DNA from: Acidimicrobiales bacterium
GTDB lineage: Bacteria; Actinomycetota; Acidimicrobiia; Acidimicrobiales; Ilumatobacteraceae
Assembly (NCBI GenBank): GCA_030832455.1
Contig: JAURJB010000006.1
Location: 1-48,923, forward strand
Direction of reading: 5' to 3'
DNA: 48,923 nucleotides
The notes beneath the pieces were generated by a model. It had not been told where the DNA came from and searched no databases. It worked only from the letters and a program-made list of their open reading frames with translations. The translations under genes and the position numbers were made by a program. Positions 35,910 through 37,748 of this stretch are shown here, piece after piece. Position 1 is the stretch's first letter; each line of letters starts with the position of its first letter.

Positions 35910-36003
35910 ACCATTTTTTTCCTCGCCATCTGGCGTTGTGCTGCATAAAAGTCATTTCTGCCAATAAACACTGCGTTTTTTGCGCATTTCTGCGTCCCCA
36001 AGA

Positions 36004-36053
36004 AAGTGGGGAAAAGTGGTGGAAAATACCTAAAAGTGGGGGGAAGTGGGGAT
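36004..36053. promoter_or_regulatory. MraZ operator: five tandem 10-bp units
   Basis: Five consecutive 10-base units begin at 36004, 36014, 36024, 36034 and 36044. Four fit AAGTGGNGNN (first and last units AAGTGGGGA-); the middle one (AAATACCTAA) is degenerate. MraZ is known to bind direct repeats of a TGGG-type core with a 10-bp period upstream of its own operon. The array covers the -35 region of a TAGTCT -10 box at 36053-36058, fitting autorepression of dcw transcription. The rest of the gap 35910-36003 is AT-rich with T runs and nothing else certain. Confidence 0.8.
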
Positions 36054-36058
36054 AGTCT
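36053..36058 (+). promoter_or_regulatory. -10 box of the dcw promoter
   Basis: TAGTCT directly abuts the last MraZ unit; predicted start near 36065, leaving a leader of about 90 bases before mraZ. Repressor bound to the array would block polymerase. Confidence 0.45.
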
Positions 36059-36155
36059 CTATTTCGTTGTTCCGGAGTGCGGACTCCCTTCAACGGCAGC
36101 AATTCAAGGGAAAGCAATCCCCACAAGGGTTTGCTTGGGCAAGCGGAGGAAAACA

Positions 36156-36572
36156 GTGTTTGTAGGAGTGCATGAACGACAGCTAGACCCAAAGGGTCGC
36201 CTGGCGTTGCCTGCCTCATTTCGCCCTCGATTAGAGCCACGATGCTTCTTGTCCATCGGCCGCGACAAGTGCATCGACATCTTGACCGCCGAAGCCTTCG
36301 AAACGGCAGCACGTGACTCGATGGAAAAGGTCCGCAATGGTGAGATGTCGCTGAATCAGCAACGGGCACAAGCCAGCAACACCTTTGAGGTTGCCATTGA
36401 CGCTCAGGGTCGCATCAACATTGAAGAAAAGCTTCGTGAATATGCCGGTCTCACCCTCAACTCGCGCGTCGTGGTGAGCGGTTCATTTGATCGTGTTGAA
36501 ATTTGGGACCCAGAGCGTCATGACCGAGTCGTGACCATGGGCATTGAACAAATCGCCGGATCAGGCGAGTAG
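36156..36572 (+). CDS. mraZ: Transcriptional regulator MraZ
   Basis: 138 residues, a doubled AbrB/SpoVT-like fold that forms rings and binds DNA. HERQLDPKGRLALPASFRP and the repeat VAIDAQGRINIEEKLREYAGL hold the two D-x-x-G-R motifs. The start is the GTG at 36156, with GGAGGA at 36145-36150 five bases upstream; an in-frame GTG at 36006 lies inside the operator and is rejected. It represses dcw in E. coli and activates in some Mollicutes. Separated from rsmH by a 222-base structured leader. Confidence 0.96.
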   Translation: MFVGVHERQLDPKGRLALPASFRPRLEPRCFLSIGRDKCIDILTAEAFETAARDSMEKVRNGEMSLNQQRAQASNTFEVAIDAQGRINIEEKLREYAGLTLNSRVVVSGSFDRVEIWDPERHDRVVTMGIEQIAGSGE

Positions 36573-36628
36573 CGGCAAAGGAGCACATCGACCACCTTTA
36601 CCTTTTTGCAAGCGAATCGCACATATCC

Positions 36629-36754
36629 GTTTCGCTGTACTGCAGTCCTTCGGTCAGCACGATGGACAGCCCCAACTCCGCCCGCTTCCATTTCGTCGAA
36701 TCGGGGAGACATCCCGACGACAACGCCGGCCGAGGGACTGCAGTACAGCGAAAC
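36629..36754 (+). ncRNA. Structured leader RNA between mraZ and rsmH (mraW-motif-like cis element)
   Basis: A perfect 20-bp inverted repeat (36629-36648 and 36735-36754; arm begins GTTTCGCTGTACTG) closes the element and continues inward by seven more pairs with two G-T wobbles (36649-36655 with 36728-36734), about 27 bp in all. The 72-base loop contains a smaller hairpin, TCGTCG (36693-36698) with CGACGA (36715-36720), capped by GGA-GACA-TCC. An mraW RNA motif is known upstream of rsmH in some actinobacteria; whether this is a member, a divergent relative or something new cannot be told by eye. rsmH starts 41 bases later without a clear Shine-Dalgarno. Confidence 0.6.
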
Positions 36755-36794
36755 ATTGGCGGTTACAAGCAAGAAAAAGAATCGACACTGCACC

Positions 36795-37748
36795 ATGAAC
36801 ACTCTCGCTACTGACTCAACCTTTAATCACGACCCTGTAATGGCTGCTGAAATCGTGGAGTTGTTTGGCAGTGTTCCTCACGGAGTAGTGGTCGATGCGA
36901 CATTGGGTGGTGCGGGTCATGCGACGCGACTGCTCAACACCTATTCGTGGATGACCGTCATGGGGATTGATCAGGACCCTTTTGCCATTCGGCATGCACA
37001 GACAATTGCTCCCGACTTTGGAGGTCGTTTGATCGTTCAGCAAGGTCGGTTCGATGGTATTGCCGAGTATTTGATGAAGCATGAGATCGCAGGAATTTCG
37101 GGAGCACTGTTTGACTTGGGCGTTTCGTCGCCACAGTTCGATGAGGCGGATCGTGGGTTTTCATACCGCCACGACGGTCCACTCGATATGCGCATGGACA
37201 CGACGCAAGTGTTTTCTGCGGCAGATGTAGTGAATGGTTATGAAGTTCAGCAACTGGCAGACGTATTGCGGGGTCATGCCGATGAGCGATTTGCTTTTCG
37301 GATTGCTACGGCGATTGTTTCAGCGCGCCCCGTGACTTCAACAAAACAGCTTTCCGAGATTGTGTCAGCAGCAATTCCTGCGCCTGCACGTCGTACGGGT
37401 GGGCATCCAGCCAAGCGAACTTTCCAGGCCATTCGAATTGAAGTGAATAAGGAACTAGAAATTTTGCCACGAGCGTTAGCAGAAGCGATTGCAGCAACTC
37501 AAGTGGGTGGCCGGATTGCTGTGTTGTCGTATCACTCAGGCGAAGACCGCATTGTTAAACAAGCTTTCCGTGATGCAGAACGCAACCCAGAAGTTGCAAC
37601 GATTGCTTCGCCTTTCCAGCACCACGGATCAGCAGGAAAACTTGTGAAAAAAGTGCGTGTTCCTGAGCATGCCAGCGCAATTGAAATTGAACGCAACCCC
37701 CGCGCATCATCGGCGCGACTTCGGGTTATTGAAAAGGTCGGCTGCTGA
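36795..37748 (+). CDS. rsmH: 16S rRNA (cytosine1402-N4)-methyltransferase
   Basis: 317 residues. FNHDPVMAAEIVELF starts the protein, SAM-binding GVVVDATLGGAGHATRLL follows, then ALFDLGVSSPQFDEADRGFSY (active-site D-L-G-x-S-S), HPAKRTFQAIRIEVNKELE and IAVLSYHSGEDRIVKQAF. The ATG at 36795 matches family starts; the frame upstream to 36606 is the leader RNA region read as protein. Second gene of the dcw operon; ftsL starts 1 base after its stop. Confidence 0.96.
   Translation: MNTLATDSTFNHDPVMAAEIVELFGSVPHGVVVDATLGGAGHATRLLNTYSWMTVMGIDQDPFAIRHAQTIAPDFGGRLIVQQGRFDGIAEYLMKHEIAGISGALFDLGVSSPQFDEADRGFSYRHDGPLDMRMDTTQVFSAADVVNGYEVQQLADVLRGHADERFAFRIATAIVSARPVTSTKQLSEIVSAAIPAPARRTGGHPAKRTFQAIRIEVNKELEILPRALAEAIAATQVGGRIAVLSYHSGEDRIVKQAFRDAERNPEVATIASPFQHHGSAGKLVKKVRVPEHASAIEIERNPRASSARLRVIEKVGC

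Follow-up and report, generated by a model that had tools for sequence, protein, structure and literature searches.

The gap between mraZ and rsmH (mraW) in Acidimicrobiia harbors what is almost certainly a conserved cis-acting RNA; this RNA constitutes a family of the class, absent from Rfam 15 and without a match to the mraW motif. It is best explained as a leader for translational control of rsmH, most likely autogenous, with about even chances that RsmH itself is the ligand. The element lies in a 48,923-nucleotide stretch of DNA (the window) from an Ilumatobacteraceae MAG of 1.47 Mb, where its predicted fold, spanning positions 36629-36754, is a stem of 27 pairs (P1) around two hairpins (P2 and P3):

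36156..36572, + strand: mraZ, the gene 5' of the element (PF02381); GTG start following GGAGG, chosen by reading the sequence
36629..36655, + strand: P1 5' arm (inverted repeat, fold, covariation)
36661..36692, + strand: P2 hairpin, with a 13-nt loop at 36671-36683 (fold; 7/7 P2 pairs of the family model changed on both sides)
36678..36684, + strand: CCGCCCG in the P2 loop, identical to 16S rRNA 1399-1405 (E. coli numbering)
36695..36721, + strand: P3 hairpin, with a GGGGAGACAUCC core (fold; absent in some class members)
36728..36754, + strand: P1 3' arm (inverted repeat, fold, covariation)
36732..36736, + strand: G-rich stretch GAGGG, where many relatives have the rsmH Shine-Dalgarno (alignments)
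36744..36746, + strand: UAC, where many relatives have the rsmH AUG or GUG (alignments)
36795..37748, + strand: rsmH (mraW), the presumed regulated gene (PF01795)

The stem described in the initial annotation is borne out: an outer 20-bp perfect inverted repeat (36629-36648 with 36735-36754) extends, counting wobbles, to 27 pairs, and is the sole inverted repeat detected within 36450-36900. The 72 bases between the arms are as described, but they hold two hairpins, P2 and P3, rather than one; the third helix had been overlooked, as had the rsmH start codon within the stem of relatives and the rRNA-like loop. That such a stem is far beyond chance agrees with the minimum free energy of the 222-nt gap, -94.4 kcal/mol vs. 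-58.1 +/- 4.3 for dinucleotide shuffles (z -8.5, with 0/200 shuffles as low). The flanking domains, PF02381 and PF01795, confirm the placement between mraZ and rsmH, and the sequence around 36795 contains, as had been observed, no visible Shine-Dalgarno for rsmH. Neither a promoter nor a terminator was found within the gap itself by a simple scan. The predicted fold continues below P1 toward the rsmH start, where 36594-36610 (CUUUUUGC) can pair with 36770-36785 (GCAAGAAAAAG). A mobile or REP-like repeat, one of the prospects that might have undone the initial annotation, is ruled out: the element is single-copy in its own genome and is therefore no scattered mobile repeat. Upstream of mraZ, at 36006-36052, are repeated GTGGGGA-type boxes, which we take to be probable MraZ operator sites.

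Among 221 family genomes searched at the DNA level, more than 100 contain the element, and 90 loci were retrieved; wherever the contig includes the genes, mraZ lies 5' and rsmH 3' of the element. RNAalifold, applied to an alignment of 50 divergent family members, predicts 42 pairs, 31 of which show changes on both sides, and in a class-wide alignment (81 members) such double changes occur in 25/25 predicted P1 pairs, the compensatory pattern in the arms that the initial annotation had proposed seeking. The number of doubly changed pairs is stronger evidence than either control on the family alignment: 93.6% of cells pair in the family structure vs. 33-45% with partners slid by 1-3 columns, a comparison that flatters the structure, which was derived from that same alignment, and 0/500 shuffles reach the observed covariation, although these ignore relatedness. 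Class-wide conservation and covariation together support the suggestion of a new cis-regulatory element at the mraZ-rsmH junction, and neither outcome that the initial annotation named as refuting it (arms that are not conserved or do not covary, or a repeat scattered in the genome) was observed.

Within the order, covariance model searches matched 131/198 genomes, and within the class 87/148. All 14 matching genomes in a phylum sample of 296 belong to Acidimicrobiia, with no match outside the class; these large searches were strictly filtered, with weak matches lost, and the absence thus means that no close relative occurs there. Among 119 hits to a sequence pattern, rsmH comes next in 107, another 7 are cut off downstream but have mraZ on the 5' side, and 5 look like chance. 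Three loci with the loop pattern and a downstream rsmH come from records titled Acidobacteria (L364, L380, L381), and may be MAG contigs that were wrongly labelled or binned. Other families of the class contain a short form lacking P3 (L272, L274, L276, L278-L282, L284, L285, L287-L301), in which the P2 loop is retained and the rsmH start codon is often found in the stem. Two genomes of the family without a model match, G033 (L027) and G034 (L032), have no room for the element, because their mraZ and rsmH genes nearly abut or overlap. A literature search found nothing on this mraZ-rsmH element.

The position of the rsmH start relative to P1 is one of two features that suggest a function, the other being the P2 loop. 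At 44 of 100 class loci, rsmH begins with an ATG or GTG within the P1 3' arm, following a G-rich stretch (GGGGGGCUGNN-AUG) such that the Shine-Dalgarno is in the arm as well, and the ribosome-binding site would be occluded by structure; this is not the case in the window. The distance between in-frame start codons and the end of the element has a single peak (38 loci, vs. 12 at the next offset), and for loci at the peak offset the start codon has a predicted pairing of 0.91 and the Shine-Dalgarno stretch one of 0.99. Several other loci (e.g. L070, L097, L211, L219) use the stem codon to open a short ORF with a stop overlapping or touching the rsmH start, which suggests translational coupling. 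Control through the start site is likely in members with a start codon in the stem, a form that we infer to be ancestral from its occurrence in several orders or families of Acidimicrobiia rather than from a tree. The remaining configuration, no start codon in the stem, is found at 31/100 loci including the window, where UAC occupies the place of the AUG and GUA the partner arm, preserving the helix without the codon; the start of rsmH, at 36795, lies 40 nt beyond the stem. Hiding of the start is therefore strongly supported in many relatives, not demonstrated for the window.

The core of the P2 loop, CUCCGCCCG, is almost invariant across the class, and its four C's are the only invariant columns in the 81-member alignment (CC and CC flanking the G, 81/81; the G, 79/81; the next C, 79/81; the last G, 75/81). 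One locus outside this alignment (L322) has CCGUCCG, with U at the place of C1402. The longest loop string shared with the whole of 16S rRNA is CCGCCCG, which occurs there once, at the target of RsmH; as rRNA mimicry would have it, the leader contains the rRNA site of the protein, and in a form that is nearly invariant in the class. The 16S copy, at 1399-1405, surrounds C1402, with window position 36681 corresponding to that base. RsmH is the N4-methyltransferase of C1402 (PMC5053481). Taken alone, this sequence match of 7 nt is suggestive only, as 1.8% of shuffled loops match the 16S decoding segment equally well; it carries weight because the loop is invariant and the downstream gene is rsmH.

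Other roles for the loop were considered within the locus. No conserved pairing partner was detected in the flanks, where the best downstream score was 7.64/9 vs. 7.58 for shuffled sequence, and the best upstream score 7.30, a value with no shuffle control behind it. Pairing of the P2 loop CUCC with the P3 GGAG is not conserved: one clade has GGAU, and P3 is missing in short members. Mimicry by P3 (GGGGAGAAAUCC) of the opposite h44 strand (GGGGUGAAGUCG) is too weak to consider, its 9/12 match being joint best, tied with other 16S sites.

We propose that the element acts in cis as a leader RNA controlling rsmH translation. In many class members, the P1 3' arm would sequester the rsmH ribosome-binding site and start codon, keeping translation low, and P2 would display CCGCCCG, a copy of the 16S site around C1402. 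RsmH not engaged by new 30S subunits could then switch off its own synthesis by binding the P2 loop and stabilising the fold. In the lineage of the window, where 40 nt separate the stem from the rsmH start, control must act at a distance, and might do so by translational coupling, mRNA processing or an extended stem. That RsmH is the ligand (about even odds) and that its binding represses are both inferred; the 31/100 loci with no start codon in the stem and the U of L322 speak against this reading. METTL15, the mitochondrial RsmH homologue, binds isolated h44 RNA with a Kd of ~1-2 uM, and also binds poly-A (PMC10828496); by analogy, affinity of RsmH for the loop is plausible, and specificity is not implied. 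An improbable elaboration is that RsmH also methylates the leader, at the C matching C1402, such that the methyl mark reports free RsmH and sets rsmH translation; the mark would perhaps report S-adenosylmethionine too, with a hairpin near metX (below) tying in methionine supply.

A leader for translational control that is read by something other than RsmH (S-adenosylmethionine or another metabolite, an sRNA pairing with the C-rich loop, or some other RNA-binding protein) is a tentative possibility, in which P1 would still hide the start in many species. It fits all of the structural evidence equally well, but short class members retain P1 and P2 alone, leaving little for a metabolite pocket, no conserved loop partner occurs downstream within the locus, and the identity of the loop with the RsmH target is left as coincidence. 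Support for such a ligand also comes from elsewhere in these genomes, where a hairpin carrying the P2 loop lies close to metX and a SAM-I/IV riboswitch. Its presence suggests a factor that is linked to methionine or SAM, or that acts on multiple genes, and it counts against RsmH autoregulation, since the latter does not predict it. This hairpin (ACAGC-NCCAACUCCGCCC-GCUGUGG), with the full CUCCGCCCG loop, lies 5' of a SAM-I/IV riboswitch preceding a metX-like gene in nine genomes of the genus to which the window belongs, and a weaker form is present in two genomes of another (loci L161, L162, L171, L182-L186, L188, L077, L078 and L449); Rfam confirms the riboswitch in 5/5 metX loci tested. In the genome of the window, too, the hairpin precedes a SAM-I/IV riboswitch, with its loop altered to CAACAAUGCCCG (G000:C108:12856-12880, L458). 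A promoter-like TANNGT stretch separates the metX hairpin from the riboswitch, and the hairpin may be the sign of a trans factor reading it, or a DNA site.

That P1 acts instead in RNA processing or stability, as an RNase III-type substrate separating mraZ from rsmH mRNA or setting their dosage, with the loop serving a nuclease or protector, seems unlikely. The length of the near-perfect duplex (30 pairs in the family model) would suit this role, as would retention of the stem in lineages with the start codon outside it, that of the window included; yet neither the single fixed place of the start codon in the arm nor the invariant loop is explained. An ATG or GTG lies just 5' of the loop, in frame, in 49/93 elements, raising the question of whether the loop encodes a leader peptide (frame ..S-A-R..) rather than being read as RNA. 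Coding is rejected, and its probability negligible, on the basis of codon third positions, two of which are invariant (81/81) while the third is C in 78/81, despite a locus GC content ranging from 37 to 75%, and of in-frame stops inside the element in 43/93, much like the other frames (38 and 42). Membership in the mraW RNA motif (RF01746), as an outlying member, was the first suggestion of the initial annotation, and is very unlikely. Both occupy, as noted there, the same genomic place, 5' of mraW/rsmH, and both combine a long stem with a C-rich loop; however, the Rfam covariance model finds no match in the window at the gathering score, nor any in 36000-36900 at E values up to 10, and exceeds its cut-off in 0/60 class genomes, vs. 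7/149 phylum genomes (of other classes). True mraW members also differ in architecture, forming one hairpin with a ACUUCCCC loop, whereas the element described here has three helices and a CUCCGCCCG loop.

The element is a class-wide regulatory RNA, not included in Rfam 15, located ahead of the 16S methyltransferase gene in the division and wall cluster. Were its control autogenous, it would tie the expression of rsmH, and perhaps that of the division and wall genes downstream, to ribosome maturation, and the old question of why an rRNA methyltransferase gene is present in this cluster would become testable. The proposed role also offers a candidate function for comparison with the still unexplained mraW motif.

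Among known systems, that motif (RF01746; Weinberg et al. 2010, PMC2864571) is alike in being an actinobacterial structured RNA with a long stem, associated with mraW/rsmH. It is listed for Actinomycetales, whereas the present element is found in Acidimicrobiia, and the two share a position and perhaps a role, which does not imply common descent. No match to the SAM riboswitch families of Rfam was detected in the window. In the autogenous leaders of ribosomal proteins, an rRNA-binding protein represses its own mRNA via an rRNA-like structure near the ribosome-binding site; the logic proposed here would be the same, except that the gene encodes an rRNA-modifying enzyme, not a ribosomal protein. 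The sgm leader reportedly contains a CCGCCC motif implicated in autoregulation; we know of no such conserved three-helix leader for either Sgm or KgmB, which, unlike rsmH, are resistance genes of antibiotic producers. Negative autoregulation at the level of translation has been reported for both of these 16S methylases (PMC2791848), in likeness to the control of a 16S methylase gene by its own product that we propose for rsmH, and the base methylated by KgmB, G1405 (PMC2791848), is three bases from C1402.
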